DNA from: Siphlonurus alternatus
Taxonomy: Eukaryota > Arthropoda > Insecta > Ephemeroptera > Siphlonuridae
Length of the DNA: 64,000 nt
Direction: 5' to 3'
NCBI GenBank assembly: GCA_949825025.1
Contig: OX463787.1
Span: 18,633,482-18,697,481, forward strand
Shown here: in pieces, positions 3,602 through 57,000 of the stretch
Position numbering within the stretch: the first letter of the stretch is position 1
How the letters are laid out: each line of letters opens with the position of its first letter
Notes under the pieces: generated by a model
Databases searched by the model: none
The model's input: only the letters and a program-made list of their open reading frames with translations
Told to the model about the DNA's origin: nothing
Made by a program: the position numbers and the translations under genes

Positions 3602-3688
3602 ATGTCTCTACACCGCCCATTACTTCTGCTGACATTTTATCTCGCAGTTGCGTACTGTCAATCGCAGACCTCTTCCGATTCTCTACCG
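3602..3688 (+). CDS. Gene A exon 1: signal peptide
   Basis: Twenty-nine codons starting at the first ATG after a short GC-balanced leader, with a hydrophobic LLLLTFYLAVAYC core and likely cleavage near YCQSQ. The donor is CCG|GTAGGT, phase 0. The start lies only about 90 bp after the end of a triplicated MITE, so the promoter must overlap or adjoin that repeat. Confidence 0.75.
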
Positions 3689-5320: not shown

Positions 5321-5363
<43 letters not shown>

Positions 5364-7905: not shown

Positions 7906-7987
<82 letters not shown>

Positions 7988-8867: not shown

Positions 8868-8902
<35 letters not shown>

Positions 8903-11900
8903 CAATTTGAAAGTTTCCCTGAATTAATATTGCGAGTACATATGAACTTAAATGTTTACAATTTTTTCTGTACAAATTGTAAGTTATTTAAATATAATAT
9001 CTTAATTGTTTGCAGTTGGCACTCTCAATCTGACCAGACTTGGAGACAAATGTTATTACTTCGAGTTTGAAGACGAAAAGGTATTTTCAATTAACATTTT
9101 GTTTAGTCGTTATTGCAGCTTTAGTAGATGTTATTTCTTTTTCAGTAGATATTAAAGTAAATTTTCCTGCATGAAATATTATGATTTTTTATTATTTATT
9201 TTTACCAATTTAATTTTGATGACAATTATTTTGAATAAGGCGTAACTAAGATGGTTTCCGCAATGTAAGTTTTGGTTCGACGTAAAACTCTGCATTCAAG
9301 CAATATGAAAAACGCATGCACTTTCAGGATAGTTAATGCATAAAAAAAAGACCAATGTACGTACGTAAATGTAAAAAAAGGAGAGAATATGTAAAAGTGA
9401 AAAATAATATCACTGTACACTACATAATGGCTCAATTTTTTTTATTGCAGAAATGGATAGAGGGTGCAAAATTATGCTACCCTAATTTTTACAGTACTGT
9501 AAGTATTTTTAATAAATTATTAAAAGTAATTTTTGTGATGTCACGTGGAGGCAACTCCTACCTTTTTTTAAGAAGAGGCGCCTCGTGAAGTCACAAAAGA
9601 ACTTTCAATAAATTTAAAAAAAATAGTTTCTGGGGGGTCTTCAAATAACACAAATTACAACAATCTTAAAATTAGGACAGTCTTAGCGTATTCTTTATTG
9701 TTGCGCTAAGACAGTCTTAGGTTAAGTTTAGGTTAAGTGGTGTTATTTGAAGACCCCCCTGGTGTGTAAAAAATCTAAAAAAAAAGGATATATTAACTTT
9801 TCACCCTCTATCTATTTCTGCAAAATAAAAAAAAATCTATGAATCTCCATCAGTACGGGGGTGGAAGGCTCCATTTGGGCTCTTTTTGGACCCACCCCAA
9901 AATGGAGGTACCCCGGCCATTTCCTCAGGGTACTGACATTTTACAATTCAGGGTACGATACATGAAATCGGTGAAATGAATTTTTCAGGGTACTTGACAT
10001 ATATTTACATATCATGTAAATATATGAGCCATGAATCCTGAGTGCATATCAGGGTCCTCAGGGTACTTTGAGGGAATGGGTATTATCCCGATAACTAAAA
10101 ATCGGAAAAAAAGTAAGAACTCAACAAACATAACATTTATAATAGTCGTATTAAGAGGTCATTTCCGGTAACCTTTGACGCTGAATTTGACCTGAAATTT
10201 GTCAAATTATCATACAGAGCATTTTTTTATGCCAAATTTGAACTCACTATTTCCAAATTAGTAGGTTTTTATGCCTTGTATGTTTTCGTAGATGCATTTT
10301 GGACTTGACCCTTTTTCAGGGTCAAGAGGACCCTGACTTAGGTACAAACATAAATGATTGTTTAATACATCTTTCTTTACTAATTTGACCCTTCTGAATT
10401 AATATTTGAAGCTAGAAATGCTCTAAATACACATTAGAAACAAATCAGGGTCAACTCAGGGTCAAAAAGAAAGTTCAAAACCATTACAATGTCATATTTA
10501 GTTTTAATTTATGTTCAAGTAGTTACTCCCGAAAAATTGAAAAAATTCAAGACAATTTAGAGCCCACCCTGACCCTGAAAAAAGGTACGAGACATTTCAG
10601 GTACCTTTTTCCTAAAGAACAAGGTTTTTCCTATTTTTTGCCGAAATTTGAAAGCTCTTGGTAAAAATATGAGAATACAGGAATTTTTCAAATATAGTCA
10701 ATTTAAAGCTCAAATTTTTTGTAAAAAAGAAATTGAAATTTGTTGACAGATATTAATAGCATGTAAATAATCTCAAAATTTTGCATCTCATTAATGCTTT
10801 CATAATTCCAACTATCCCATGATTTTATGTACACAGAACTGGACGTCAGCCCAGCAGTTCTGTCAGACACACGGTCTGCAGCTGGCCAGCATCGAGACTG
10901 AGGAGGAGAGCGACTTGATGTTTGAACACGTCAGAGAGACGAATATCAGAGGCTGCAAAGGAACTATTTGTAAGTTGGGATAATAGATGAACTTAGACAG
11001 TGCGCAATCGGGTGTTAAGTAACTAATATTTACAATCCATTATTGCAAAATTCAAATTCAAATCTTATAATAATTTAATCGAATCGTAACCAGCTCTAAA
11101 AAGTGATGTTGGTTTCAATTAATTATTTAATGGATAAATTTAACTTGTTGACAATAACAGAATTATTACAATTCCAATTTGTCTGATGGATGATTTTGAT
11201 AAGTTTTGAATTTCAATTTCATACTAAAATAAAATAATATATTAGAAACTATACACAATTATGTTAGTAAAATTAGAGTTTTTAAGTTAAATAAAGGAAA
11301 TAAAATACTTGAAAAATAAAAATATGAAAAAGAATAAATTTTTTATATATTTTTAAAAAAATTAATTTTAGTTGTATTAATATTTAAAATATATAATGAA
11401 ACTAATGAAATATATTACATATATACATCATATAAATCCTCTTTATCCTCTATATGCACACAAATGGTTTTGCTCAATATTCGATCTCAAGAACTGTTTA
11501 CTAAGAGGACGGCCTAACTTTTTTGCCGCCAACCGGCTGACATTTCCTTAATCCAGTGACGTCACGACGTTGACTTTTCTAGCGCATTTGATTGGCCTAG
11601 AGTCACATACAAAGATACCGTGGTCAATGGTGCAGCTTTATTAGCCATCTATCAAATCTGTGAAGATGTCAAATCTTTGACGTCCTCAAAGAAACCGCCC
11701 GAGCACGTGGCTCATTTAGCGGACTTCCCCAAAGGTTGGCGAGAAATGTTGAGTATCAAGGTTCTTCAATTAATAAGTTGTTCTAGGCCGTCCTCCAGTA
11801 TATTTATAGTCGTTGATTCGATCTTACTGTTAGTCTTCTACAAACATCCCTCTACAACGCTCTCGTGATTGCAGCAGGTTTTTATTAGTCTGGTTCTTTT

Positions 11901-12146
11901 CCAGGGTGCTATATCTGGCTGGGAGGAACCTACTCTAAACAGGATGAAACGTGGCGGTGGCTGACTGGAGAAACAATTAATTACACTGAATATGGGCTAA
12001 AACCTTTGTTATCCTACCAAGTACCTTATTTTGACCAGGGCTACATAATTGGGTTGGTGGAGGTTGACTATTTTAGTTGGGATAAAGAAAAATCTCCAAA
12101 TAAAACTTCCGGATTCGTGTGCGAGCTAGAAAACGTCTGTACGTAA
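3602..12146 (+). CDS. Gene A: secreted or stalked C-type lectin (5 exons)
   Basis: Spliced gene, exons 3602-3688, 4344-4789, 9016-9080, 10837-10969, 11905-12146, stop TAA at 12144-12146. Exon 1 is a signal peptide (MSLHRPLLLLTFYLAVAYC). Exon 2 is a Thr/Ser-rich mucin-like stalk. Exons 3-5 form one C-type lectin domain: LGDKCYYFEFEDEK, then FCQTHGLQLASIETEEE, then WLGG, TWRWLTGE and a terminal GFVCELENVC. Phases fit (0, 1, 0, 1) except that exon 2 is 446 nt, one more than the frame needs, so its first third and its Thr-rich remainder lie in different frames. No EPN/QPD or WND calcium/sugar motif is visible, so glycan binding through calcium is doubtful. Intron 2 is about 4.2 kb and full of repeats. 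No AATAAA lies close to the stop. The CTLD call is firm; the exon 2 frame is the open problem. Confidence 0.8.
3838..4002 (+). repeat. Irregular tandem repeat TTTTAATCAGAAGAAACCGG
   Basis: Four diverged copies of 40-50 bp starting near 3838, 3879, 3932 and 3975, within intron 1 of gene A. Confidence 0.75.
4344..4789 (+). CDS. Gene A exon 2: Thr/Ser-rich mucin-like stalk, frame disrupted
   Basis: Acceptor TTTAAACAG|ATC, donor TTTAA|GTAAGT. From the acceptor, frame 0 reads IQDPIITSEKSV...TSSEPTSN and then stops at 4500-4502. The +1 frame is open from 4417 to the donor and reads a strongly Thr/Ser-rich run (TSITTSNLTTTNSS, STNVSITG, TTSETTSWVLTASEP, TTSDLSTSVPEIMTTETSTK). Neither upstream alternative acceptor (4326) nor any AG inside the exon rescues the frame. 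A one-base indel near 4440-4460 explains it. The composition predicts dense O-glycosylation. The disruption could be an assembly error, a polymorphism or real decay. Confidence 0.6.
5285..5362. repeat. (AT)n and poly-T tracts
   Basis: (TA)n at about 5285-5306 and a roughly 40-nt T run at 5322-5362, in gene A intron 2. Confidence 0.9.
5699..5947. mobile_element. piggyBac-like non-autonomous element
   Basis: TTAACCCATTGTTTCCCA at the left is mirrored by TGGGAAACAAAGGGTTTAA at the right, with TTAA at both boundaries as piggyBac requires. An 18-bp perfect palindrome CGTGTGTTATAACACACG sits just inside the left end. About 249 bp, no ORF. Confidence 0.55.
6206..6345. repeat. GC-rich degenerate minisatellite (GGTCTTTTGCGCC)
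   Basis: Five spaced copies of a CAGGTCTTTTGCGCC-like unit, GC-rich in otherwise AT-rich DNA. Confidence 0.7.
6477..6647. mobile_element. Fold-back MITE, 171 bp
   Basis: GGGGCATTCACAAAGCACTT is inverted as AAGTGCTTTGTGAATGTCCC and pairing continues through TAACCCCAACTTTAGCCC and the TTTAGCACCATGTTTAGTACC arms to the centre. GGGGCATTCACAAAG ends suggest a Harbinger-type MITE. Confidence 0.8.
6716..7535 (+). repeat. Diverged direct duplication
   Basis: 6716-6950 and 7312-7535 align in the same orientation (AATATTTGCCTTAT, TTTACCTATAACTG, ATTGCAATGCACTG, GCCATACGAATTTGCAAT-like blocks). No gene content. Confidence 0.6.
7906..7987. repeat. (GATT)n microsatellite
   Basis: About 20 uninterrupted GATT units. 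Confidence 0.97.
7988..9015. other. Intron 2 remainder of gene A
   Basis: AT-rich, with paired GGCAGGTAGGCTAAGC / GGCAGGTAGGCTTAGC near 8260-8315 and a poly-T run near 8868-8902. No gene seen. Confidence 0.5.
9016..9080 (+). CDS. Gene A exon 3: CTLD N-terminal strand
   Basis: Sixty-five nt, acceptor TTTGCAG|TTGG, donor AAAAG|GTATTT, phase 1 in and 0 out. It encodes IGTLNLTRLGDKCYYFEFED plus EK, carrying the first long-form CTLD cysteine. It has the same length and phase as 23812-23876 of gene B, which reads DALNMVRLGDKYYFFEFDEEK. Confidence 0.8.
9426..9850. mobile_element. Family A fold-back MITE carrying a nested MITE
   Basis: Left arm ATTGCAGAAATGGATAGAGG...ATGCTACCC and right arm CACCCTCTATCTATTTCTGC with central GTGATGTCACGTGG and CGTGAAGTCACAAAAG. 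The right arm is split by the element at 9632-9759. It lies in intron 3 of gene A. Confidence 0.85.
9632..9759. mobile_element. Nested MITE, 128 bp
   Basis: GGGGGGTCTTCAAATAACAC is inverted as GTGTTATTTGAAGACCCCCC, with inner GACAGTCTTAGCG/CGCTAAGACAGTC. It interrupts the family A arm. Confidence 0.85.
9860..10660. repeat. CAGGGTAC / TTGACCCTGA motif-rich region
   Basis: Repeated TCAGGGTAC, GACCCTTTTTCAGGGTCAAG and CACCCTGACCCTGA motifs on both strands, also a palindrome ATATATTTACATATCATGTAAATATAT-like core near 10000. The motif recurs in the large fold-back at 36-38 kb. Confidence 0.5.
10837..10969 (+). CDS. Gene A exon 4: CTLD helix region
   Basis: One hundred and thirty-three nt, acceptor TACACAG|AACTGG, donor ATTT|GTAAGT, phase 0 in and 1 out. 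It encodes NWTSAQQFCQTHGLQLASIE followed by TEEESDLMFEHV, the canonical CTLD helix 1, cysteine and L-A-S-I-E segment. The stretch is nearly identical at DNA level to gene B exon 8. Confidence 0.85.
11505..11796. mobile_element. Fold-back element with GAGGACGGCCT ends
   Basis: GAGGACGGCCTAACTT inverted as AAGTTGTTCTAGGCCGTCCTC. It contains AGTGACGTCACG near the left end and lies in gene A intron 4, about 110 bp before exon 5. The 82-codon ORF inside has no recognisable family. Confidence 0.55.
11905..12146 (+). CDS. Gene A exon 5: CTLD core and C-terminus
   Basis: Acceptor TTTTCCAG|GGTGC. It reads YIWLGGTYSKQDETWRWLTG, a long insertion where the calcium site normally lies (LKPLLSYQVPYFDQGY), then SGFVCELENVCT and a stop. 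WLGG, WRW and the final FVCE are CTLD hallmarks. The usual EPN...WND residues are absent. Confidence 0.85.
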
Positions 12147-19314: not shown

Positions 19315-19544
19315 TTACGAGCACGTATCCTCAAGCTCGCATACATAATTGCACATTTTTGAACAATGACGGGCTTTCCAATGGTGTTGGCCATCTTTAT
19401 ACACTATCATCTCCAAGCAGTCGAAATATTTCCTATAGTTGATTGGCTCTCCAGAATTCCAGTCGGTGAAGTTGAATTGCTGTCCATTGGTCCATCGCCA
19501 TGTTCCTTCCACTTCTGAGTCACTTCCACCCAAGCAGAAAGCCC
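19315..19544 (-). CDS. Gene B exon 9: CTLD core and C-terminus
   Basis: Acceptor TTTGTCTCCAG|GGGC. It reads CLGGSDSEVEGTWRWTNGQQ, then FNFTDWNSGEPINY, a Cys, HHWKARHC and CNYVCELEDTCS stop. WRW, GEP, the paired Cys and VCE are CTLD hallmarks. EPN is EPI and WND is WKA, so the calcium site is probably degenerate. The usual WLGG Trp is Cys here. Confidence 0.85.
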
Positions 19545-22500
19545 CTGGAGACAAAGTGGATGGTATTGACACCTGCGGATAACTGTGGTCATGTTAGAGT
19601 ATAAAGAGGGGGTCTTATAAAATTTATTTTTGGTTGTTTAGTGTAGTAATAAATAATATACTTATTATATATTTTTCTAGTGTTATATAAGAATTATTGT
19701 CACTTGTCTTAATATATTTTGAATCACTCTGAAAATTATAGTAAGCTTTCCTTACATTATAATGTCCAATATTTTCAGCAAAAAAAAAAAAAAAAAAAAT
19801 GAAGCAACAGTACAATTGCACAGAGTGATCATAAAGTTCTTGAAAATTGTAGCCGCAAATAAAACTAATAAAATCAATCTAAATGTACATTTAAATGCAT
19901 CAAATTGAAGCCCTGGATTCAACATTTTCAAAACTGGATTCAATTTTTTTTTACGAAATGGTTTTCTCACAAGTTGAAACAAGATGAAAATTGCGTTTTT
20001 TCAACTCTTTATCTTGATTTTTTGGATTGCAGCACCTAAAATTTAATGCATCAAAACTCTTGCTTCTTGATTTTTTTTTACCTTGAGGTTTCTCCACATA
20101 TGCTCCATTACCTATTAGTAATACAAAAAAAATTAAACACATGTAACCGCACCTCTAGCTCCCGCCAAAGGTTGCGTGATTCGCATGACAAGTGTGGTGG
20201 ATTAAAAAACGCTTCTGATGGGGTGCTTGAGTTGCAGTGTCTTGAATACTGTGTTCGTATGTAACTCAAAAGAAGAATTTGAGTGTAATGAGATCAAGGG
20301 ACTTTAGGGCCCAAGTTGTGGGACCTTCATAACGTCTGTTCAAGTGTCCGAGTAAGACCCCGTACAGACAAGAGCGCACGTTATTTCGTGACAGAGTGCA
20401 CCATTGTCTGTACGAGATCTTCCCCGCGGGTAACTTCCCCAAATGCGACGGTCCCGCAATGTGGGCTCCAAGGTCCCTTGACCCCACTCAAATTCTTCTT
20501 TGGAGAACAACGTGTTCAAGACATTGCATGGAGAAGAACACGTGCAACCCAAGAGCGCGCTTTTCAGTCCACTGCGCTTGCGAATCTTGCGACGCCACGT
20601 GATCTTTGGCGAGAGCTTGAGGTGCGGTTACATGTGTTTTGAGGTACGAGTGAAGTCAATGTGGAGAAACCTTAAGGTAATGGGGATAAAAATATTAAAC
20701 AAGCAAAAGTTTTGATGCATTAAATTTCAGGTCCTGCAGTCCAAATCATCAAGAAAAAGAGGTGAAAAAATGCAATTTTTAACATGTTTCAATTTGTGAG
20801 AAAACCATTTTGACAAAAAAAAATTTTGAGTCAAGTTTTGAAAATGATGAATCCAGCACTTCAATTTAATTTATAGAAAGTGTACATTCAGATTGATTTT
20901 AATAGTTTTATTTGTGTCTACAATTTTCAAGAACTTTATGATCACCACGTATTTTCATTACAATAAGTACAGATCGAGTGAGCCATTCTTTGTATTTAAT
21001 ATTTTGTCATGAACTTTGAAATGAAAGGTTGTTTGTAGAGCTATAAGAATTTGTACCATGATAGCTAAGATACTTTTGTTTATAATAATAATAATATTTG
21101 TTTATTGGGTTAAGTAATACAAAAGAATGGGGGAAAAGACATGAAAAAAAAAAAACAAAAAAAAAACAACAACAACAAAACAAAAGATGACTTAAGAGCA
21201 TAAATAAAAAATACATAATAAAAAAAAAAATATGAAAACAAAACCCAAACGGTGGTATGAGAAAGGCATAAAATCCATGCATAAATAATATATGATCAAC
21301 CACCAATAATTATCAGATAAATAACTACATCGTCAACATTTATACATTTGAATAAAATAATATAGCAAAAAAGAAATACAATATGCTATATTAACAAAGT
21401 AATAATAAATATATACATAATAAAAATAGTGAAAGATAGTAAAATAACTATCATTGTCAATACAAGCTTCTTGTTGTGACTTAAGGAATGGGGAAAGGAT
21501 ATTATAACGCAGTGTTTCAGGTAAATTGTTGTATGCATTTACAACACGAGGGAAGAAAGAAGAGAGGTAGGCAGACTGACTTCTAGGAGTCCCCAACACA
21601 GTACTAAGATATTATGATCTTGATAGAGAATTTTCGATGTGATTTTTTTCTTTAACAGCTTGACTAAAAACATAGAAGTTACTGTTCTTCATTACTATAA
21701 CATGTTTATATTAATTTAAGGTAATACATTAAATTAATTTAGTTTGCACGAAAGTATTATTTTAGAATTAAAATATCTTTTTGAATCTAATGGTGCTGTT
21801 TTAAAATTTTAGCTAGCGGAATTTTATTTTATAAAAAAAAAGCTCTTAAACAACAAATTAACAATTCAGCTTTCATTTAATCATTTTTTTATTTATATCT
21901 TTCTTTTTTTTCAGGAAGAGATTTTAATTTTTCAAATAGGCTTACATAAAGGATTTTCAAACTATGAGCTGAAAGGTTCGTTCCTTGCATTCAGATTCCT
22001 GATATGAACTGATAAAAAATTCAAATCTGTTCCTTCGTGTGATAAAAAAAGTAATTGCATGGCAGTCGGAATTATGCTTTTTCTAACTGCTATGGAATCA
22101 TTTTTTCTAGTTTCATTGTCAATGTTCCTGTTGTTACCACATCTCAAGCTACCCTAAAACTATTGTTACATATTGTACTATTTATTTTGCCATACCTTAT
22201 AACTTCTTAAATTATAAACAAATTTATTACACAATATGGAAAAAAATGTAAGAATCATATTGCATTTCGTATCATTTTCTTGCCTATATAGAAATATTAT
22301 TTAAATTTCTTAACTTTTTTCTTTACTAACTTATATATAATAAAAGGAATGATCGCTCGTCCATCCCCTTCAAGTTTCTATACTCACAACCAATATACAT
22401 TGTTTTTTTGTTTGCTCGCGTACTCCACGATCAATTCGTTTTTCTCCTCAGTCTCGACGCCTGCAAGTTGCAAACCATGTGACGCACAGAACTTCTCGGG

Positions 22501-22587
22501 AAAAAATCGATTCTTTCCGATTGTGTATTTACAAACAAACTTAATTTTCTCTCTTACCTTGGCGGGTAAACATGGTTTGGGTTTAAA

Positions 22588-22664
<77 letters not shown>

Positions 22665-24732
22665 CCATAACATTTTATTGCCAATGTAAATTTAATTAAT
22701 ATAAAATAAAAAGATTAATTTCTCTTTCATCCCCTTCAAATACTTATACTCACAACCATACGATGATTCTTTTTTGCCTGCGTATTCCACGATCAAGTTG
22801 TTCTCCTCCTCAGTCTCGATGCTGGCCAGCTGCAGACCGTGTGACTGACAGAACTTCTTTGCTTGCTTGTTGGTTAGCACCTGTTTACAATACATTAAAA
22901 CAGTGGGATCAAATAACTTCTTTAACATCACATGTGGATGAAACAAGAATTTTTATACTAAGTGGATCGGTAGAGTCACTGCTGTCGGTGTGCAGGAAAT
23001 GGGTGGCAAACAATTGAATGTCTGACAAATAATGCAAAAACATTGAGACAATCCATACACAAATAGAATATATGTACTTCTTGACCACACAGCTAGCTTG
23101 TAAGAAAGATGCACTTACTCAATGGTCAAGATGAAATGTAAATTTGACCATGAGATGTTTTATGTTTTTGAAAAAGAGCCAAAGTGTCTAATTCCTCCCA
23201 AAATATATTTTTGAGATTGACGCTAGTGCTTAAATTTTTATGATAAAATTCATCCTCATTCTCACCATTGCAAATAATATCATGAATTTTATATACATGT
23301 TATTCTCATAACTAAATTTTATTATAATTAAACTAGCTTTTGTTTGTTGATGCAAAATTAACGATAGGAACTTTTAATGTTTAATAAAATAAGACATTAT
23401 TTTCTAATTTACATATTTTTATCAGAATATTTTGACATATAAAATGTCGCTAGCATTTCCAAAATACATGCAATCGAATATTCATATTAATAGATGATTA
23501 AATATTATAATATTAAAAATTCGTTCAGGAATATTTGTACACATAATTTAAATGTTAACTGCATAACAAAATTCAAGCGAATAAAATATTAAAAAAATTA
23601 ATTTTTTTTCTCATTCTAATTAATTTTTCTATTTTCTGGCATAAATCAAGAAGTATTTGTATACTTAATTGGTTACAAAAATTAACAAAAGACAAAGTTC
23701 AATATAAGATATAAGTTCAATATTTTTTATAAGAAAATAAAAAAATCATATTATATATAAAGGAAACTAAATTACCTACTGCACTAATTTTCTATTTAAA
23801 ATGAAACATACCTTCTCTTCATCGAATTCAAAGAAGTAATATTTGTCTCCCAGTCTTACCATGTTAAGAGCGTCAACTGAAATAAAAATTATATTTTATA
23901 TTTTTATGTAATATCAATGATATCTCTGTAAATGAAACACATTGTATCATTAAAATTATTTAAATTTTTATAATTTTACTTTATTTCAGATTACATGTAA
24001 CCTATATACCTTGACAGTGAACATATAGTATTTTGGAATATTTTCAATTTTAACACAATAATGGACAATTTGCATGACATTTTTTAATTGCAGAATTAGA
24101 TAGAGGGTGCAAAGTTATGGCATCCTGATTTTTTTCAGATTTTTTTAGAGACCGGGAACTATTTTTAAAAATGATTGAAAGTCAATTTTATGACGTCACG
24201 AGAAGTCTGTTCTTAAGAAAAGGAAAGGCGCTAAACGTCCTTGACGTCATAAAACTCACATTCAATAATTTTTTAAAAATAGTTCCCGGTCTCTAAAAAA
24301 TCTAAAAAATTTCAAAGAAGTACCCTCTATCCATTTCTGCAATAAAAAAATGTCATGCAAATTGTCCATTGTAAGTAAAATGTGGCGGGATAAATGTGGA
24401 GACAAATGTTTTCATTAAATATATTTAATTTTAGTCAAATTAACTGAAAAAATGTCATAGAAATTCTTCCATAGTAATACGACTTTCGAGGAATTATATA
24501 CAAATAATGATTTTAAAAAATATTAAAAATTTTGAAAATTCGAATATTCTTAAATGTCTATTGTTACTACATATTCAAGCAATGGTATAAAATATCAAAA
24601 TAATATTATTTTTAATTTTTCTTTATTCACATCCTCTATTATTAGAAAAAAATAAATATGCGAGATTTTAATGTTGACTGCGTCAATTCAATTGCTTTTA
24701 TCAATTATTATTTCAATCATTTTTTTTAAATA

Positions 24733-24818
<86 letters not shown>

Positions 24819-27800
24819 TATATGTATAATATTATATTATATATTATTATGTTCCCCAATATTGTTTGTTAAAATTTTTCTTGAAAGACATAAAATCTTA
24901 AACTTCCAATGTTATAAAAAAACATTTCTTTTAATATTAATATATTATTTACAATAGTATATTTTATAAACAACGTTATTAAAAATAATTATTACTTTGA
25001 CCTATAAAAATGGTTTTAAGAAACGAATTGAGTGTAAGATGACACGAAACATCGATTGTTGTAGTTCAATTTGATTAAGATGTAAACCTTAGCAACCCCT
25101 TATAATAATTCTGAATTTTTTATGAAGACAGTTCTAAGGACCAAAAAAATTAAGAAAAATTTTCTAAAAAATTCGCTTAACTAATTTTTTAATATTAATT
25201 TCTTAGATTAGGTCTCCATGGAAAAGCCGTATATTGAAAATTTAAAAAATTAATTTTAAAAAATTCTGTCGTATTTTGTTTTGAAATTTTTACCACATTT
25301 TTTTGGTGCAAAGAACTGTCTCTCAAAAAAATTTGAAATTATTATTAGGTTGCGAATTTTTAAATGTTAATCAAATGAAACTAATAATATGATGTTTCAT
25401 GTTATGTTACCCTTAACAAAGTCTCATTAAAAAAGAAAACTGCAGTTAAAAGCTAATCCATTTAATTGTACTATTTTGAATACAAATATTAGACTCACAA
25501 GTTTGTGGATGTTTAAAGCTGCAAGAATTGTCTGTTATCCAAGGCTTTAAATTTGCCATGTCCGTAAAGACAATGTAGTTGAAGAGATCACATCCAGTAG
25601 TATCATTGTCAGGAATTAGTGAACGGCTGACTACTCCACGTAGTACCCAGGACTTTTCACCATTTGTTCCAGTACGAAGAACGACCATTCCACTTCCACT
25701 ATCTCCAGTGCATGGACCTGTACCTGCAAGTATATGAAGATTTTAGAAAAATATTATGAGACACAAACGCAATATTATTGTTTTGTGAAAATAATGATCA
25801 AGTACCATCTCTTTTTCCTGCGCAATATGCGTTGTCATTTACTATGCTTTTGAATTGTGCATTACTTTGAAGGCAAACATTTTTGTCAACAATTGGCAGC
25901 TCCGTCATCTTTGCAATCTCTGTTGCCGAATTAAAATTTTCATCTCTCCCCCAGCCAACAACCTGAAAAATTCCATTGGAAATCAGTTCTATCATTATAT
26001 AACTGTATTTTCTTCAACTTACTGTTCCAATCTCGCCAGTTAATTGATAGTCTACTGTGTTATTCCAGAGACAAACTGGAGTTACGTAATCAGTTAAGTT
26101 GACTGAGAAGTCAAGCTCTATGAATGCTAGATCAATGCCATTTATTCTAGATATTTCATAGGAAGGATGAATTTTCACGTTCTGAGCCTGTTAAAAAAAC
26201 AGAAAAACGTATTATAGCACGAAGAATTCTCAATTCTAATTATCTCTCTATCTGAATCTCTATGTTAATAAGAATTCCTATGACACAAGGACTATATACC
26301 TAACCTGAGGGACTATAAATCTGTCTTAAATAATAGACCGTATTTATCCTAAAATGGTACATTTTATTACAAAAATCTTAAAAACACGATGCATATGGTT
26401 TTCAGGATCAACTTACATTTTTGCCAATGCTGGCTCTGAACGTTGCTGTAGGTGGATCAGTCAGTATGTGCTGAAGGCAGCGAGCCTGAACATCACTGTC
26501 TGATGATGCAAAGGAGAGGTCGAAGGACAAGTCTCAGTAACAAAATGTGACAGAGTCAAGTGCAAAGACTGAGTGATCCACCTGGTACGTCATCTTTTAT
26601 AGTGCATATCAATACATAAAATGTTGCTCCGGAAGCTATTCATTTCATAACAAACATTTTTTACTGAAACACCATTGGCCAGCACCATTCAACAAAATAC
26701 AGGGCGGGTATGGTCTAATGAAAGGTTTTTCACCTCATAGGGGTTGCTGACAAGTGAGTACATTAAGAATAATTATTTGTATGCTGTCATGTAATTCATG
26801 GAGAGCGAGTACTATTGCTTCAATATCTTGAAGCAATAGTACTCAATTTAAACACAAATTGGGTTGTATAATAGAGATATTCTAATTTATTTAAATATAA
26901 ATTAGACTATCTTCACATTTTCCGATATAAAATGGAAGGTTCCTGACTTCCAATAATAAAATAATATATATAAAATATATATATATATATATTTATATGG
27001 GTATACATTATAGATATATAAATTTTTTTCATTAAAATTGCATTTTTTTTTCTATATTAAAATAAATGTAGCAATTTTACTTAAGACTCTGCCTCACCTC
27101 GCAGCGGCAATCCTTTGCGGAAGTAAAGTATGCAGCCTGCAGCTTCGTTCATTACTACGGAGTTGCATTTTACACTTATAGATGGCATATTTCATAATAT
27201 CCCCACGATTTGTTTAAAACGTTTCTTCAGATGGTTCGGGGTTTCAAGTTAGTATATAATTAGTAATTAGAAGTACCCAATAGAGTTTGATTTAAAAAAA
27301 AAAAGATAAAAAAACATATACTGATTTACTGCTCATAGTGCACTTTCCTGAAATAGCAGATAGCTCATTATTTTTGCAACGAAATCGTGGTATAGTTAGG
27401 CAGATGGCTCATTATTCCGGACGGTAGACGAATATGCCATTCTATATTATAACAGTTATATATTATGCATCAAATTAAAAAAGGAACGAGCTTACCATGA
27501 ATTTATAAATGAAATAAAAGAAAAGCCGTCCACTGTAAAAATGCATGAAGGTTCACTTTCAACACTCATGCATATACAGTAAAACCTTGACTTTACGAAA
27601 TTGAAGGGACCAAAAAATCGGGACTTCGTAAATTCGAGGTTCGTAAACTCGAGGTCCTTAAAAAAAATTAAAAAATGCCGTATGAATTAACAAATTATTG
27701 TAATAAAACTTCGTTTTTATAATTAATTCAGATTTATTCGAGTGGTAAAAGAGATTAAAACAGTAGAAAAATATGAAATAGCGTGATATAAAAAGATCAC

Positions 27801-30800
27801 GATTTACGCTTGTGATCGATCACGTATTATATATATAAGTCACGCGGTAATTCGAGACAACGTGAAAACAAAAAAAATAATCAAAACGTTACTAAGACAC
27901 ATATAATATATGCATATAAAAATACATTAACGGTGCGTTGTAAATTTACATCTCTTAGGAAATCGCAATTTTTACGTGAATATCATAACATCGCGGACGT
28001 GACATGAAGAGGTGGAAAAAAAAATAAAAAACTTCAATTTTGTGCATTTTAAGTCTTTTAGAAAATGAAAGAACTCGTATTAATTTTATTTTCGCAATTC
28101 GCAATCGACAATTGAAATGCAGTAAACGACGTTTTTTCTATTCGCATAGCCAATAAAATAAAAATACTGTTCATATACGCGGTTAATTTTCCATAACGAT
28201 GTGCATTTTATTTTATTTTTTTTTATGTTTTTTTTAATTTTTATTCTCTATCAATAATTTATTAAAAAAAAATTAAAATTGAATGAAGTTTTGAGGTATA
28301 TATATAATGTACTCCATTCATGCAGCAATGCGATTGGGTCATACAATCTGGCCGGACGAAGAGGATTCAACACTTTATTATTTTTAAGATCTTATTAACA
28401 ACGATATAGACCACGCATTTCCATACAAATAAAAGTTTTATCAATCAGTTATTGTTTTATAACTAATAAATAAAAAATCTTACGAGTTGACGCTATAAAA
28501 TAAAATGAATCTTGATTCTCGATCACAAATTTTACATTATGACGCGCGCGTAATTTACATTTAAAAGACGCTTTAAATGTCATTTTTATGATAAATATAT
28601 TCGTAAACTCGAGGTTAATGCGCTCTAGGGGCCATGTGAGCACTTTGTTATTTCGTAAAATCGAGTTTTCGTAAGTTCTAGGTTATTTAACATGCATTTC
28701 CCTATCTAAATATTCGGGACCGAGAAAATACTTCGCTAAATCGAAGTTCGTAAAATTGAGGTTTTACTGTACGCAATATAGTCAAATCAAATTCAACATT
28801 CCCACTGGAAGTGCCAGGAAGTTTTACGTATGTATTAACGTTTGATATTTGAAAATTTTGCAGAGAGCTTTTAGTATAAAAGCACACACCTTTTTGCAAA
28901 ATCTCAAAATTTAGATATGAGAAAGAAGGAGAAACCACTCATTTCAGGCTACTTCCGGCGTGATTATAAAAATTGTTTTACAGCACCGAAAATCAAGGAT
29001 CGTATAACAAGCAGCAGTTGAAAATGTTAGAGAAGAAAAAATATCAAGCAACAAGCCAAGAAGCAAGTCAAAGAGAAAGTTTGAGAGGGAGGGTAGCTGC
29101 TGTAGCTGGACTACCCTTCGCAGGTATAGAATTCACGCGCACATGCGTCTACCGTTACCTTTTTGCTTCTGCTGCTAAAGCAACACTATCTTAGAAGTTT
29201 TTAGAATTTCACCACTAGTATTCGCTGATTGTTACAAACTTTTTTTTGTTAAGTTGTAACAAATATGAGTTTCGTAACGATGATTAATTTCTTGAATACA
29301 TAAATTTCATTGAAAAATCATTTAACTAGCATTTAAGAAAATAAAATTATCTTGTGCATTAAATAAAGCAATTCGTAAAAAAAAAAAGAAAAAAAAGTGC
29401 AAAGACATTAATTTTTTATTTGAAATTTTAAATTTCCAAAATCGAAATTTTAAAACTGCAATTACAAAAGATTATGATTAAAATTAAAAAAAAAAAATAA
29501 GAAGACGATGTGCAATAGTCCGATAACTGAGCTTTTTTTAATGTAAATCCCACGTATATGCGCTTTTTGGTTGAATAAAACGATCAACATTGCGGATAGC
29601 ATAGAGAAGCATAGGAGCTTCCTAGAAGTGATGCAGAGTCTTAAGATTCAATATCTAAATACTCACGTTTCGTATCTGAACAGTGCTGTGATCTCGCCAC
29701 TTTTGAACCTTGGTTCTACCCATGACTAACGTTATATCTGCTGCTTCCAACGTGAATTTGAATTCATTCTCCTCCAAACAATGTGCAGCTGTAAAATGTG
29801 TCCACGTTACATGTAACAGAAAAACAACATTTCTCTTAGTTTTAACTGATATCGCTCAAATTTTATTTAATATAATTCGGAATAAAACTAGAAAATCACT
29901 TATTAAAATCATTGGGTGCGTTTCGCAAAGCAGTTAGCCAGGTTTCTAACCACGTTTCACAATACCTGTTTCACGTATTAAACGATGTTAGAAACCTGGC
30001 TAACTGGTTTGTGAATCTTGTCCATTGATAATAAATACAGAGATAATTAAGATGAAACTTGTTGTACTGTATTAATAGTATTTGTTCTTAAATTTATTAG
30101 AAGAAATTTATCCTGCATTATTATTGTGTAGGGCTTTAAATAACCAAGACAAATGTATAACCATTGACCGTCAACTTTTAACCGGTTTTTAATCAAATTG
30201 AATTTCGATTAAAAATAGCCCGGAATTTTGAAAATGTTTGATTGATTTAAAAAACCATCTAACTGTTATCATTTAATTTCATTCCAACGGTTAAGTATTT
30301 GAAATTATTTCATCAGATAATTTATACGTAACAGCTAACTCTACGCCATCGGTTAATTTTTGGCAATTTTCAAGTTAAATTAAGATAGATTAAATACAAA
30401 TTTGCCATTTCTATTGCATACATAATTGAATTTAGTTTATTCTTTTCCCTTTTATCAATTAATATTGTTTATTTAACTGGCATTATTGAATATGGTTTCT
30501 CATCATCTCATCACAGTGTCACAATTGCATTCAATTTTTTTGTGGGGGGGGGGGGGGGGGGGAGGTGCGGAGAGAGGGTGATGAATTGAAATATTAAAAT
30601 ATTTTCCAAACTGTTTTCAATGTATCATATTATATATTTTCGTGAATGACTCTCAAATTCCTTTTTTTCTTTGTCATAGTTCATAAAATATGTTTTTATT
30701 AGTTGAATACCAAAAACGCAAGTTGAACAATTGTGCAGTTGACATTGTCAAAAATATAAGTAAATGTTATAGGTAATATATATTTGAGAGGATTGTCAAA

Positions 30801-32562
30801 TACCTTAATATATCCTCAATGGCATTCATTTGTATTTTATAGTGTAGCAATATTCTATGAATAAAGACATAAATTTATACTAAACTACCTGCAGGTAGTA
30901 AGTGCAGGCTGGTCGATTGGTGCTACTAATAAACTTTGTATGATTTCAATCTCTAGTGATTTTCTCCTTTTTTCGCCCGTGACAAGACGCTCACTCCCTT
31001 CCCATCTCTTCAACTATTATATGAAGAAGAAAGTAAATGCATTAAGGTTCAACAAAATATTTAAAGGAAATAAAGATATAAAACAGTTTCTTAAGTTATT
31101 TTTTAATAATGTTATCTGATACGGTATGCAAAAAAAATCACCTCAAGTATTATTATTTTACTAAGTAAATAAAGAAAAATATATTCATGCCGAAATATTA
31201 ATTATAAAATATTTTCTTCAAACAGACTGAAGTAACTTAATAAAAATAAATTATAAGTGGTATATTAGCAATCAGTGCCATCAGTGCAATTATATTTTAA
31301 CGTAACTGTGAAAGTTTACTCAAAGTTAACTTGTTATTTTTTTTTCTTGCATACTTAAAAAATTAATAAAAAAAACTAACTGCGGTTTAAAGTTTATAAA
31401 ATTATGACATGGCTAGAAACGGTTAAAATAGAGTATTGTTTAATTTTCAATTTTAATCGACAATCGTTTAAATTAACCGTAACCTCGAGTTACAGTGTTT
31501 TATGAAAAGGATTAACTATGTGGTTTTAACCCAACGGTTATTCAACCAGTTAAAATTACCAGCCCTGTTATTGAGTGATTATAAAAATATAATATCAATG
31601 AAATGGAAGTAAGCCTAGTATACCAAGCTATTTTTTGTATCAGTCTTTAATACTTTCATCCCACTTTAAAAAAATTTGTGGGTTGTCCCCTTCCCCACCT
31701 TCCACTCTCCCAATCTCTCTCATAATGCTAAGTTAAATGCTTTCGTCTGAAAATTATATCATTATTATATTTATTAACGATTGAGAATCCTACAGCCTAA
31801 ATGCGAAGAAATGTTAACTTGCCTGTCACGACGACACTTCTGCTGATCAGTGTTCCTCCACACATGTAGACCGTAGATATTTGATCACGGTGGAACAGTC
31901 CAACAATCCAAGGCCAGGCTGAGGGGTCTACTACTGGCTCTCCCTTTGCAACCAAGTTCTGATAACCTTTGTATCTACCGCAGTCACTCGCTGTGAGTCC
32001 AGAGAGAGAAATATATGAGGCATCATTTTGTTGTGTCAACGTTGATCTTCAATAAATATATCTTATGATCTCCACAATTTGTATTTGTTTATTGGATGTT
32101 CATAAGTTCAATCCCAGGCACCGTCAAAATTTTTCACAAGTGGATGTTGTTACAGAACACCCACTAGTACAACCAGAAGGCGAATGAGTCCACCATCAAT
32201 TGTCGACCATCCTTTCTCAAATTTAAAATTTCATGACAGGTCTTAGTATGCAATTTGAAACTTAATAATTAGTCATTGACAAGTTTGTCATTTTTTTAAA
32301 GTATTATTGTTATTAACTGAAGAAAAAATACTAAAATTTGAAATGTGAAAAGCCAAATGAAATTTAATACTAAAAAGTATAATAATCGTACCATTAAAAA
32401 TGCAAAACTAATAAAACACACTTATCCCACTTGTTCCTTCTAAAATATTTTTTTATTTATATATAGCCAATCAAATTTCTTTTACTCACCATATATCCCA
32501 GTAGTCAAAAGGGACATTATGATAAAAGGTATCATATTTTGCATCCGTGTCATGCACAGCAT
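19315..32562 (-). CDS. Gene B: secreted S1A serine protease joined to a C-terminal C-type lectin domain
   Basis: Nine minus-strand exons: 32562-32490, 31990-31823, 29788-29667, 26187-26023, 25962-25806, 25723-25499, 23876-23812, 22880-22754, 19544-19315. All phases fit and the total is 1332 nt, 443 codons plus stop. In order: signal peptide; short Cys-containing prosegment (ASDCGRYKGYQNL); protease domain starting VAKGE with His in AAHC, Asp in GIDLAFIEL and Ser in GDSGSG; a short SCSFKHPQT linker; then a CTLD ending CNYVCELEDTCS. Gly precedes Pro-Cys at the S1 position 189, so trypsin-like specificity is unlikely. The SxxxxRGVVSRSL...CDLFNYIVFTDMA part resembles arthropod modular/gd-like proteases. 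That protease and lectin exons form one transcript is inferred from phase, order, strand and the absence of a start or stop exon between them; two adjacent genes remain possible. Confidence 0.7.
19824..20946. mobile_element. 1.1-kb near-complete palindrome in gene B last intron
   Basis: GAGTGATCATAAAGTTCTTG is mirrored by CAAGAACTTTATGATCAC; matching continues through TTAATGCATCAAAACTCTTG, CTTGAGGTTTCTCCACAT, ACATGTAACCGCACCTC and CAAGGGACTT to a centre hairpin CGTACAGACAA/TTGTCTGTACG near 20385. Arms are about 530 bp. The inner 500 bp is GC-richer than the outer part. No protein family in its ORFs. Confidence 0.85.
21075..21610 (-). mobile_element. 5'-truncated LINE 3' fragment
   Basis: Minus strand encodes the reverse transcriptase C-terminal tail SQSAYLSSFFPRVVNAYNNL then PETLRYNIL, followed by a 3' UTR ending in a (TAT)n tail (AATATTATTATTATTATAAA). 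Same orientation as gene B, within its last intron. Confidence 0.7.
22388..22512 (-). pseudogene. Decayed duplicate of gene B lectin exon 8
   Basis: Minus strand reads NRFFPEKFCASHGLQLAGVE then TEEKNELIVEYASKQKNNVYW, clearly homologous to 22754-22880, and ends at the same TTGGTT|GTGAGTAT donor context. The duplication includes downstream flank (CCCCTTCAA...TACTCACAACCA in both copies on the plus strand). Length is 125 nt, so it leaves phase 2, whereas the next exon needs phase 1. Its acceptor (GGAAAG) has a poor pyrimidine tract. A long (AT)n separates the copies. Most likely a non-functional duplicated exon; mutually exclusive use would cause a frameshift. Confidence 0.65.
22590..22663. repeat. 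(AT)n microsatellite
   Basis: Long AT run separating the two copies of lectin exon 8. Confidence 0.95.
22754..22880 (-). CDS. Gene B exon 8: CTLD helix region
   Basis: One hundred and twenty-seven nt, acceptor GTAAACAG|GTGC, donor GGTT|GTGAGT, phase 0 to 1. It reads VLTNKQAKKFCQSHGLQLAS followed by IETEEENNLIVEYAGKKE. A duplicate lies 370 bp further on at 22388-22512. Confidence 0.85.
23812..23876 (-). CDS. Gene B exon 7: CTLD N-terminal strand
   Basis: Acceptor ATTTCAG|TTGACG, donor GAGAAG|GTATGT, 65 nt, phase 1 to 0. It reads DALNMVRLGDKYYFFEFDEE. The incoming phase 1 matches the outgoing phase of the catalytic Ser exon at 25499. The Cys present at KCYY in gene A is Tyr here. Confidence 0.8.
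24060..24370. mobile_element. Family B fold-back MITE
   Basis: AATGGACAATTTGCATGACA is mirrored exactly by TGTCATGCAAATTGTCCATT. Interior is the shared ATTAGATAGAGGGTGCAAAG and GGGAACTATTTTTAAA with two TGACGTCA sites. It lies in the gene B intron between the protease and lectin exons. Confidence 0.92.
24736..24816. repeat. (AT)n microsatellite
   Basis: About 40 AT units in the gene B intron between protease and lectin exons. The rest of that intron (24817-25498) is AT-rich with no Cys-rich exon visible. Confidence 0.95.
25499..25723 (-). CDS. Gene B exon 6: catalytic Ser exon
   Basis: Two hundred and twenty-five nt, phase 1 to 1. It reads GTGPCTGDSGSGMVV with catalytic Ser in GDSGSG, then SWVLRGVVSRSL, CDLFNYIVFTDMANLKPW and a SCSFKHPQT tail. 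If the donor ACTT|GTGAGT were not used, the intron would add SNICIQNSTIKWISF and stop at 25446, a possible protease-only ending. Confidence 0.85.
25806..25962 (-). CDS. Gene B exon 5: protease VVGWG segment
   Basis: One hundred and fifty-seven nt, phase 0 to 1, identical in length to gene C exon 5. It reads VVGWGRDENFNSATEIAKMT, then LPIVDKNVC and YCAGKRD. The donor GATG|GTACTT is weak but is placed by homology. Confidence 0.85.
26023..26187 (-). CDS. Gene B exon 4: catalytic Asp exon
   Basis: One hundred and sixty-five nt, phase 0 to 0. It reads AQNVKIHPSYEISRINGIDL with catalytic Asp in IDLAFIEL, then YVTPVCLWNNT with the light-chain-bridging Cys. Length is identical to gene C exon 4. Confidence 0.85.
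26807..26844. repeat. Perfect 17-bp hairpin
   Basis: GAGTACTATTGCTTCAA, loop TATC, TTGAAGCAATAGTACTC, in gene B intron 3. Confidence 0.85.
27577..28769. mobile_element. pogo/Tigger-like non-autonomous element
   Basis: CAGTAAAACCTTGACTTTAC at the left and the inverted TAAAATTGAGGTTTTACTG at the right, with TA on both outer sides (27575-27576 and 28770-28771). Subterminal TTCGTAAACTCGAGGT repeats occur in both ends. No transposase frame survives in about 1.19 kb. Confidence 0.75.
29667..29788 (-). CDS. Gene B exon 3: catalytic His exon
   Basis: Acceptor TTTTACAG|CTGCACATTG, donor CGAAAC|GTGAGT. It reads AHCLEENEFKFTLEAADITL followed by VMGRTKVQKW. Catalytic His is in the AAHC formed across the splice. 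It is 122 nt against 116 in gene C, two codons longer. Confidence 0.8.
29919..30017. mobile_element. Short MITE (family F)
   Basis: CAAAGCAGTTAGCCAGGTTT is mirrored by AAACCTGGCTAACTGGTTTG in about 99 bp. A relative is at 54085-54203. Confidence 0.75.
30129..31567. mobile_element. hAT-like element with 8-bp target duplication
   Basis: Left end TAGGGCTTTAAATAACC and right end GGTTATTCAACCAGTTAAAA...AGCCCTG, flanked by TTATTGTG (30121-30128) and TTATTGAG (31568-31575), seven of eight matching. The interior has repeated AACCGGTT/AACGGTTAA-like motifs near both ends and a poly-G run at 30543-30562. No transposase ORF. Confidence 0.6.
31823..31990 (-). CDS. Gene B exon 2: prosegment and protease N-terminus, GC donor
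   Basis: One hundred and sixty-eight nt, exactly the size of gene C exon 2. It reads ASDCGRYKGYQNLVAKGEP, then SAWPWIVGLF, MCGGTLISRSVVVT. The Cys of SDCGRY is the one expected to bridge to Cys in PVCLWN. The donor is GACAG|GCAAGT, a GC-AG intron; gene C has GT at the same place. Confidence 0.8.
32490..32562 (-). CDS. Gene B exon 1: signal peptide
   Basis: Reads MLCMTRMQNMIPFIIMSLLT then TGIY, with donor TATG|GTGAGT, phase 1. Three in-frame ATGs are possible; the outermost is taken. The hydrophobic core and the small residues after it fit a secreted protein. Confidence 0.7.
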
Positions 32563-49100: not shown

Positions 49101-49200
49101 ATTTGACTTATATTATGCAGCTGCATATTTTTTCTTGCAAATATAGCCACACCACCACACTTCTGCCTTTTTCTGGAAAAATAAGTAATTAAATTGTAGT
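46140..49200 (-). mobile_element. 5'-truncated jockey/CR1-like LINE
   Basis: Minus-strand element with a 3' UTR ending in AATAAAGTATTCTATTCTAT (pentanucleotide tail). The 5' junction falls within the endonuclease domain near 49170-49205, where the sequence changes into the host MITE. Confidence 0.8.
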
Positions 49201-53943: not shown

Positions 53944-54001
53944 ATGAAGTGGCAGGGGTTGACCTTCATCGCAATATCATTTGTGGTATCAGGAGCACTT
54001 G
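53944..54001 (+). CDS. Gene C exon 1: signal peptide
   Basis: ATG at 53944 begins MKWQGLTFIAISFVVSGAL, donor CTTG|GTGAGT, phase 1, matching the phase of gene B exon 1. An ATG a few bases upstream is immediately followed by TGA out of frame and is not used. Confidence 0.75.
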
Positions 54002-57000
54002 GTGAGTACGATTTTATATTTTCAATGTACGTGGATAATTATGGTAGCTACTATCTATAATGGATGTGATTTATGAAATATTTAGCCAAGTTTCTAACCA
54101 TATTTAGCTTACTCACGATTAACTATAACTGGCTTACGTTTATATACGTATTTAAACGTAGTTAACAACCTGGCGAACTGCTTCGTGAATCACGCCCATT
54201 ATAACTATAATACAAAAACAATTTCAAATTCATAAACTATACTATTTGTAAACATTCATTTGCAAATATTATGTATTGATAATCGATTTAGAAAAATAAA
54301 GTTGATTAATCATGTTAAAAAAAATGTAACTAATTTTGTAATCACCTTTCTTTCAAACATTATGGATAATGTATTAACTTTACGACCGGGGAAAAAATGT
54401 TTTTTGTTATTATTTTACATTATAAATACCATATCTGATTAATATTTTTACTAATCAAAATGGGTTACGATAATATAATTATGTCGATGCTATGATTTAA
54501 ATTGTCTGCATTTGGTTTCCTAGAAATATATTCTGAAACCTACTCTCTTTGTGCTAACAAAAATAACTACATAATTGATACATTTATTATTTTAATAATA
54601 GTTTTTTATTGGTTAATGATAGCAAAAAAAAATGACAAACAAAATTTCATTCCAGCTTGTTTTACCTATAGTAGATTCATAGTAGATTATTGAAAGTGAT
54701 GTCACGCACCCTGGAGACGTCAATAGGTGTATAGCCCCTATCATTTTTTATTAAGGATTCAACGTAACTTACAGAATTCTCAATAATTATTTTAAATAGT
54801 TCCGGGTCTAAAAAAAAATCATAAAAATTTCAGTGTTGAACAATTTTGTGCCCTTTATTTATTTCTGCAATAAAAAATTTTCAATTTGGTCCATATAGTA
54901 ATATATATGTTCATATAGTCCATCAATAATTAAAAAAAAAAAAAAAAACAATGAACAATATGCATGAACAATTTTTATCACAGAAATAAACAGAGAGTAC
55001 CAAATTATGAAACTTCGAATTTTTTCAGATTTTTTTGAGGCCCGGAACTATTTTTAAAAAAATTAATTGAAGTTCTGTAAATTAAGTTAGCACCCCTGAA
55101 TCCTCAATAAAAAAAGTCTTATTGACGCCACCAAAAGGCATGGCTACACTTTCAATAACTACTATTTTACCCCAGCGTGTTGTTACTATAAATTTTGATG
55201 TTGCAAGGACACTTAGGGTACTGCGTTTAGCAGCCTATGGCTTGAAAAAATGAAGTGATCGGAATTTTTTCCCTTATAAATATTATAAGACCATCCATTT
55301 CTGAACAACGTTATGCTATTTTCTAATCATGAAAATGTTTTTTGTTTCTCTCAGGAATTCATTTTCAAAATAATCATTTCACCGTAAAATTTACAGAGAC
55401 CGTTTTCTAAGTAGGGCTGTAGAAATCTCGAAAAACTTTCAGCTCGCTCTTGAAAAAAAAAAAGCTCGAGTTGGCTCAAAACCTGATATTTTGAGACGAA
55501 GCTCAAAAATCGAGCAGGCTCAAAAATCGAACCAAGTTCGAAAATCGAGCCAAGCACAAAAATCGTGCCAAATCTTGAAATGGCTCAAAATCGTGTCAAA
55601 GCTCGAAAATATTATTTTTTGCTTTATAAATAACTGTGCAATAATCTTGATAGAATCCATGAATACGCAAATTAATCATAACAAGAAATAAGAAATAAGA
55701 AGTTTATTAATCTTCCATAAAGACAAGTCAATAATACATACATAAATAATGGTGGTTAATTCATTTCAGTCTTTAAAAAAATCGTCCATCTTGTATATCT
55801 CTTTTTGAAGAAGATATTCTTTCACTTTCTTCTTAAACATGGGCAAACTATTACAAACAAACTAAGAAGAAATATTTTTAAATTAATTTTATGTTCCCTT
55901 TCAATTTGTGTGTGCTATAATTTAGTAAAAAAAAAAAAACAGCGGAACTACAAGATTTTTTTTCTGTTTAATTGAGGACCTTAGATTATAAATTGTCAAT
56001 TGAATTAACCATATTAAACCATCTGAAACACGCCTACTTCATAGTCAAGAAATTTTATTCTTAAATTTATTTTATTTTATTTTTTTTCCACTATGTTAAT
56101 GATGCTATATTAGTTCTGCTATTAGCGTAAACATTGAAGCATTCAAAGTTAAACATGGCATTGTTATAATTAAGTCGTGTGAAGAAGTTTTAAGAATTAG
56201 TTGAGATAAAAAAATATATATTTATAAATACCTCATTCTCATGCTAAACTTTTTGACCATTTTTCAATCGCAGTGGGATAAAAGATTTCCAAGAAAGAAC
56301 TTAACATTGGCAGAAAATTAAGGGACGCGTTTATTTTTGTATTAAATAAAAATTTTAAAGCAAATCTCTTTATTTACATTTTTAAATGTCAGTCAACCTT
56401 AAATACCGCTACTTCCTCCCTGCGTGTCTGTCCATCGGTGTTGGACCCTCCAGGTAGTATTTTTAATAGGTCAACAACCCCACAACACAAGTTAAATAAC
56501 GTATAAGTATAAGAGAATATTCAACTAAAACTTCCATTAAGGGAACAATGTGCAGTACTTAATTATAGCGTATAATAGTAAATAAGTATATTATTATAAA
56601 ATATATTTTTTTTTCTGAATTTACATGGTAAAAATAAATTAACAATTCAAGCAACGGCCCAATACTTGAAAAGCTTGGATTTGGTTCGAATCTCGAGAAT
56701 TTCGATTTCGGCTCGAATGTCGAAAAGCTCGATTTCGGCTCGTAACTCGAAAAAGTCGGTTTGCTGTACACAATTAAATCGAGATCCAGAAAATTTTGGC
56801 TCGATCCGACTCGAATCTCGAGATCGATTTCACAGCCCTATTTCTAAGATGCCAGTTTTTGTAAAGCCCTGCTTCTTCCTACCTCCAGTTACAAAAATGA
56901 GGGTTGCAAAGGTAATAAAAACCACTCTAAAGGCTTTCCTTTTGTGTAAGAAGATAATTTCTATACTTATTATTACTTTATGGTATTTTGGTGCCTTCAA

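Follow-up and report, generated by a model that had tools for sequence, protein, structure and literature searches.

A gd-type serine protease with a predicted C-terminal lectin domain in Siphlonurus alternatus, and the gene family to which it belongs

Known protease-lectin proteins and the gene in the window

Limulus/Tachypleus factor C holds a C-type lectin domain (CTLD) and an S1 protease in one secreted protein, the CTLD lying before the protease among other domains. We have analyzed a stretch of 64,000 nucleotides (the window) of the ephemeropteran insect Siphlonurus alternatus (assembly GCA_949825025.1, contig OX463787.1, positions 18,633,482 to 18,697,481), in which a minus-strand gene, here called gene A, places the protease first and the CTLD after it, so that the order of factor C is not the one found here. 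A sequence-only reading of the window had proposed one secreted protein with the protease first and the lectin last, and had taken this order to be unusual. The gene model and the genome-wide pairing of both parts support such a protein; the novelty of the order does not hold, since CLSP1-3 of culicine mosquitoes already have it (PMC4461313 and PMC6070988). We consider it likely that gene A is a single gene coding for a secreted zymogen, a gd-type S1A protease with a C-terminal CTLD, and that some 30 genes, derived from a duplicated fused unit, make up the family of which it is a member.

In Aedes, CLSP2 combines an N-terminal elastase-like protease with a C-terminal CTLD (PMC4461313), and CLSP1 and CLSP3 have the same protease-first, CTLD-last arrangement (PMC6070988). 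CLSP2 is an immune regulator of the haemolymph whose loss raises melanization and the expression of Toll-pathway genes; on fungal challenge it is cleaved into a 33-kDa protease and a 14-kDa lectin, and the lectin binds fungal material (PMC4461313). In 2018, CTLD-SP proteins were stated to be known so far from culicine mosquitoes only, and the history proposed for CLSP was the duplication of a single fused gene, with a QPD lectin taking the place of its EPN lectin (PMC6070988), a small-scale parallel to the loop variety of the gene A family. In wasp venom, a lectin and a protease are described as separate proteins (PMC3091792).

The CLSP1-3 proteins, from Aedes aegypti and other culicines, resemble gene A in having a signal peptide, an N-terminal S1 protease and a C-terminal CTLD, in their size (429-450 amino acids, against 443 in gene A) and in the occurrence of both EPN and QPD variants, which are found in CLSP and in the gene A family. 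At the level of the gene model, gene A has the layout and the length of the CTLD-SP (CLSP) class. CLSP are elastase-like by description and number three genes in Aedes, whereas the gene A family is gd-type, with at least about 31 loci. The elastase-like label cannot separate the two types, because elastase specificity has also been predicted for SP46 of the honey bee, which is gd-type (PMC1761132). The gd-type fusion found here may well be separate from that of CLSP. A gd-type protease-CTLD fusion, whether or not with about 30 copies and a diversifying loop, was not found in the literature searched, a result that does not show its absence from print. What was already known is the protease-first, lectin-last order of the culicine proteins; what is new is the scale of the family and the variable ligand loop of the CTLD.

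Structure and relatives of gene A

Gene A is made up of nine minus-strand exons (32562..19315), all of them where the sequence-only reading had put them, which join in phase into 1332 nt, that is, 443 codons and a stop. The entry phases of exons 1 to 9 (0,1,1,0,0,1,1,0,1) all match, the eight introns all have an AG acceptor and seven of them a GT donor, the single GC donor being located after 31823; the paralog C7_4839k likewise has a GC donor at the same exon. Exon 1 (32562-32490) contains the start codon and a predicted signal peptide, MLCMTRMQNMIPFIIMSLLTTGIY, with a hydrophobicity maximum of 2.60, and leaves in phase 1. Exon 2 (31990-31823) carries a propeptide Cys, the presumed activation region (QNL/VAKG) and the start of the protease, and ends at the GC donor. 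The catalytic His (TAAHC) is found in exon 3 (29788-29667) and the catalytic Asp (DLAF) in exon 4 (26187-26023), while exon 5 (25962-25806) continues the protease (VVGWGRD) and exon 6 (25723-25499) holds the catalytic Ser (GDSGSG), the predicted pocket residues G189/S216/I226, a Cys-containing tail and the phase-1 donor GTGAGT. Intron 6 (25498-23877), with a repeat copy at 24350-24080, separates the protease from the lectin. The CTLD is encoded by exon 7 (23876-23812), which enters in phase 1 and contributes the first strand, exon 8 (22880-22754), with KFCQSHGLQLASIETEEEN, and exon 9 (19544-19315), with the remaining CTLD, the ligand loop (GEPINYRKYFDCLEM...HHWKARHC) and the stop.

The Pfam Trypsin domain (PF00089) covers residues 46-291 (E 6.3e-36, 124.7 bits against a cut-off of 20.6) and Lectin_C (PF00059) residues 328-437 (E 2.1e-14, 54.6 bits against a cut-off of 22.6). 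With PF00089 above its cut-off and a complete catalytic triad (H83, D140 and S237), gene A has the features of an S1A serine protease. With E up to 0.001, its lectin part matched 117 PDB sequences, of which the best 60 are CTLD-type proteins. In a protein search with the lectin profile, 3 of 32 candidates matched (P0088 with E 4e-12 and two near 1e-3), two from jgi and one from Mytilus, with no insect relative among them. Extra Cys residues are present in the protease tail (NSC) and in the CTLD (AFC, MCN and DTC), and our guess from counting them is that they may form additional disulfides, perhaps one linking both domains. A second, degenerate copy of exon 8 was found at 22497-22390 on the minus strand (77.6 % over 170 bp including flank); its donor phase mismatches exon 9, and it is either a relic or an alternative exon.

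The motifs of Ca2+-dependent sugar-binding CTLDs are EPN or QPD together with WND. In the gene A loop, formed by GEPINYRKYFDCLEM and HHWKARHC, EPI replaces EPN/QPD and WKA replaces WND, and little remains of the second-Ca2+ ligand residues of such domains. Because of EPI and WKA, canonical Ca2+-dependent sugar binding is not predicted for gene A. The earlier suggestion that the lectin tail targets the protease to glycans is weakened for this gene, but it keeps its force for several paralogs, for which the loop sequences make Ca2+-dependent sugar binding possible. Both EPN and QPD also appear as CTLD motifs in PMC6070988.

When the 443-aa model was used as query, 87 proteins matched at E up to 0.001; the top ten are insect proteins with 33-40 % identity, mostly named serine protease gd or with gd-type domains. 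Mosquito gd proteins are among the 87, but neither the name CLSP nor PF00059 occurs in any of them. In a tree of 77 rows, made of gene A, its paralog gene B and 75 of the 87 matches picked by coverage, A and B were fully supported sisters within a gd-like clade that comprises 46 rows (100/100), the tree carrying a warning of several long branches. The GDSGSG motif and the non-tryptic pocket of gene A are those of a gd-type catalytic domain. The pocket set GSI, as in G189/S216/I226 here, is listed for honey bee SP46, a protein that the same paper groups at one point with Gd and at another with Stubble (PMC1761132). Gene A shares with the gd family this motif, the pocket and the place in the tree, and differs from it in the absence of the GD_N domain (PF16030) from a Pfam scan of the 443-aa model and in having a CTLD behind the protease. 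Among ten scanned relatives, leucine-rich repeats (LRR) were found behind the protease in P0044 and P0048 of Clunio marinus and in P0058, and GH18 in P0049 and P0062. These five are gd-like, have no GD_N match and carry an extra C-terminal domain, as gene A does, although the domain is LRR or GH18 and not a CTLD. Four of them, with P0051, form a clade separate from A and B (97/95; P0062 was outside the tree sample). Since LRR and GH18 versions exist, gd-like proteases have gained a C-terminal module more than once.

Protease-lectin loci across the assembly

We searched the whole assembly with both parts of gene A, and the numbers obtained are lower bounds: at least 146 exon matches were listed for the protease part, 56 of them over the Ser exon, and at least 150 for the lectin, 97 of them end exons (both sets selected by eye, by query coverage). 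Gene A and 40 other Ser exons were read as sequence and 15 were taken from the match listing alone. Among the matches listed, 31 of the 56 Ser exons have a CTLD end exon of their own downstream, on the same strand and within 25 kb, while the control arrangements at the same distance gave 3 (same strand, upstream), 2 (opposite strand, downstream) and 0 (opposite strand, upstream). Genes A and B are among the 31 pairs, as are C10_20394, whose end exon is partial, and C10_20907, whose end exon contains a stop. In the first 20 downstream stretches, same-strand lectin-exon matches were present in 16 and an end exon in 9.

Ten loci, gene A included, were modelled by seeking phase-compatible splice sites only, the paralog models beginning at exon 2. 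Gene A and seven others show the full run from exon 2 to exon 9, ordered alike and with compatible phases; in C10_20934k there are exons 4-9, the modelled exon 8 beginning with an in-frame stop, and in C10_19820k exons 6, 8 and 9. In 10 of 10 loci the exon-6 donor lay where it had been predicted, as did a phase-1 exon-7 acceptor in 9 of 9, with offsets elsewhere in two models (the exon-5 donor of C2_4729k placed six codons early, the exon-7 donor of C10_19511k two). The 31 listed pairs, against 3, 2 and 0 in the controls, and the seven further loci with exons 2-9 indicate that protease-then-lectin is the design of a multigene family. The distances between Ser exons and between CTLD end exons of 26 genes were correlated (Mantel r 0.58, none of 2000 permutations being as high), as expected under duplication as one unit. 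The catalytic Ser was substituted in 5 of the 40 other copies (L018 Gly, L033 Tyr, L040 Arg, L043 Leu, L046 Asn), all with lectin-exon matches downstream, partial for L018. A related Ser exon, L035 (C10:5332782), continues into a long Pro/Ser/His-rich tail and has no lectin end exon within 25 kb among the matches listed.

At the junction itself, the entry phase of exon 7 and the GTGAGT donor agree with the sequence-only reading, by which the Ser exon leaves in phase 1 and the N-terminal lectin exon enters in phase 1. That reading had seen no initiator exon before the lectin, and a scan for a separate first exon in 23877-25498 found none: 11 ATG frames of at least 12 residues are listed in this gap, none with a phase-1 donor of the sought pattern, and in the frame entering exon 7 a stop intervenes, after which no ATG follows. 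The 40 other Ser exons were read through with no phase imposed. A phase-1 donor was found at the same place, behind a Cys-containing tail, in 28 of them; 6 have a phase-1 donor-type match elsewhere, and the last 6 have no such match and reach a stop 68-122 residues from the exon start.

These data bear on the alternative in which the protease and a separate lectin are two neighbouring genes, duplicated as a pair and never fused. Such paired co-duplication would equally yield the 31 collinear pairs among the matches listed and the distance correlation, and it would be in keeping with the fact that, within the stretch read, 39 of 40 copies meet a stop on read-through past the Ser exon. Against it, 28 of 40 copies have the donor fixed in place and phase, with read-through tails behind it that vary in length and sequence, none of the 6 copies without a donor-type match has a CTLD end exon within 25 kb among the matches listed, and the phase-1 exon-7 acceptor is where predicted in all nine loci. 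Six protease-lectin gaps were inspected, and four of them, including one of 729 bp and that of gene A, hold no candidate lectin start of either kind, spliced or unspliced. The other two speak for separate lectins, the gap of C1_4863k (823 bp) with two candidate spliced start exons and that of C10_20934k with a hydrophobic ATG frame running unspliced into exon 7; the background of spliced candidates is 0.217 per kb, and 99 of 600 random 1-kb pieces of the window hold one. We regard two separate genes as very unlikely, most of the doubt being settled by the family evidence in the window's own assembly.

Several other observations have to be set against the single fused gene. Among the 28 copies with the conserved donor, L001, L006 and L013 have no CTLD end exon within 25 kb among the matches listed, L018 has a partial one only and that of L015 contains an in-frame stop. 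The protein searches brought up no further fusion: PF00059 is present in 0 of the 87 proteins matching the 443-aa model, and a search with the CTLD stretch gave 22 candidates, none significant. Besides, both the fusion and the secretion are read here from gene models and genomic evidence.

The ligand loop and the predicted role of the family

Exon 9 was read in 30 lectin copies, all but one protease-linked, and one of the 29 linked copies is cut by a stop. The loop counts refer to 28 linked copies, leaving out C10_20907 (in-frame stop), the unlinked lectin C10_18724, the linked gene B and the partial C10_20394. At the EPN/QPD position we found QPD in 6 copies, EPN in 5, QPN in 4, EPS in 3, EPD, EPI, HPD and VPN in one each, and a triplet not of the X-P-X type in 6, over a CTLD frame that is much less variable. 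The pair C1_5124/C1_5063 has no change in 74 Ser-exon codons nor in 39 codons of the CTLD frame, but of its 37 loop codons 8 differ, through 9 non-synonymous changes and a single synonymous one. Among three young pairs with no gene in common, differences affect 35 of 108 codons in the loop and 25 of 339 elsewhere (Fisher p 8e-10), with 43.5 non-synonymous to 2.5 synonymous changes in the loop (binomial p 0.01). The ratio of non-synonymous to synonymous rates (dN/dS, or omega) over the tree of 26 genes was 0.75 in the loop, 0.28 in the CTLD frame and 0.21 in the Ser exon, values that carry a program warning of too few codons. For a young quartet, the loop omega was 4.1 (log-likelihood -362.54 against -366.48 at omega 1; twice the difference 7.9) and that of the CTLD frame 0.8, not different from 1. 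Gene structure, family size, conservation and the change of the loop are supported. The unusually rapid evolution of the predicted binding loops suggests that the recognition proteases form a varied set.

This picture has weak points. The Ser exon of the young quartet had an omega of 1.3, not different from 1, and two young pairs show a non-synonymous excess in the Ser exon too (8 to 0 and 10.5 to 0.5), so that relaxed constraint, or selection, extends beyond the loop. In the quartet, the test covers 37 codons of four genes. Positive selection on the loop is supported but unproven because pairs and quartet were chosen after the alignment had been seen and no standalone lectins served as control. 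The CTLD of gene A itself, devoid of the canonical Ca2+ and sugar ligands, may bind a protein or nothing at all.

By analogy, we infer the secretion, activation, cleavage, targets and immune role of the gene A product along the following lines. The family of about 30 genes would have arisen in this insect lineage by duplication of an already fused protease-CTLD unit. The CTLD would be the recognition arm that brings the zymogen to a surface or a partner, and the protease, cut at NL/VAKG, would act in or modulate an extracellular cascade of the melanization or Toll type; both parts might be separated afterwards, as in mosquito CLSP2. Duplication and fast change of the ligand loop would give many binding specificities on a conserved protease, the copies without the catalytic Ser acting as decoys or regulators. 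A diversified repertoire of this kind, some 30 protease-lectin genes with conserved protease and CTLD frame and a positively selected loop, each tail delivering its protease or pseudoprotease to a different target, is an idea that we put forward tentatively, with a little less than even confidence.

Gene A could also be a decaying or non-functional member of a genuine fusion family. The loss of the CTLD ligand residues, the repeat in intron 6 and the broken duplicate of exon 8 would fit this, but the reading frame is complete, the triad is full, all the splice sites are in place, and dN/dS is 0.19 for the protease against gene B (dS 1.5) and 0.30 for the lectin against gene C, a further CTLD gene of the window, with dS about 1.5-1.7 over the two comparisons; we find decay quite improbable. 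A doubtful but more serious possibility is that these proteins are non-immune effectors (digestive, seminal, egg or venom), whose loop changes in conflict with molecules of a host, prey or mate, since fast loop evolution cannot tell immunity from other conflicts and gd itself functions in the embryonic dorsoventral axis pathway (PMC1761132). On the other side, CLSP2, the functionally studied protein of the same architecture in the literature searched, regulates immunity in the haemolymph (PMC4461313). With some 30 natural variants of a single protease-lectin design, this genome offers a family with an internal control, beyond a one-off fusion, in which one can test whether the recognition domain is the means by which insects diversify immune proteases. 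To the culicine proteins with the protease-then-lectin design, the family would add another case, which may well be independent.

Gene B (53944..62584, plus strand) is a paralog of the protease part, head-to-head with gene A and with the same phases, its exons being 53944-54001, 57392-57559, 58180-58295, 60156-60320, 60381-60537 and 62360-62584. CTLD-like exons lie beyond the end of the window, about 15 kb past its Ser exon. On the same strand after this exon there are a Cys-rich exon (63257-63478), then, beyond the window, Kunitz, LDLa and PLAC domains, and then the CTLD exons (L019/L069, C10:18695800-18714300). Either intron 6 of gene B harbours a papilin-like gene, or the protease and the lectin were parted by the insertion of phase-1 modules. 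Gene B was considered as a clean proof by way of another module behind the same donor, and rejected, given that 63257-63478 and the following domains may be such a nested gene and that CTLD-like exons come further on.

Gene C (9016..12146, plus strand) has CTLD exons at 9016-9080, 10837-10969 and 11905-12146 and no protease match nearby. Upstream of them, at 3602-4793 on the plus strand, there are an exon resembling a signal peptide and frames rich in Ser/Thr, which seem to be broken near 4459; the whole (3602-12146) is possibly a mucin-lectin or a decaying gene. Exon 8 of gene A (22858-22781) and its counterpart in gene C (10853-10930) are 90 % identical over 78 bp while the lectins share only 43 % of their residues, a pattern suggestive of gene conversion. 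Introns of A, B and C, and other parts of the window, contain members of a family of short interspersed repeats (24350-24080, 57836-58115, 9437-9832, 54780-55071 and 607-904). The window also contains a frame of 313 aa on the plus strand (44587-45528) and one of 987 aa on the minus strand (46394-49357) that, judged by eye, resembles a non-LTR (long terminal repeat) reverse transcriptase.

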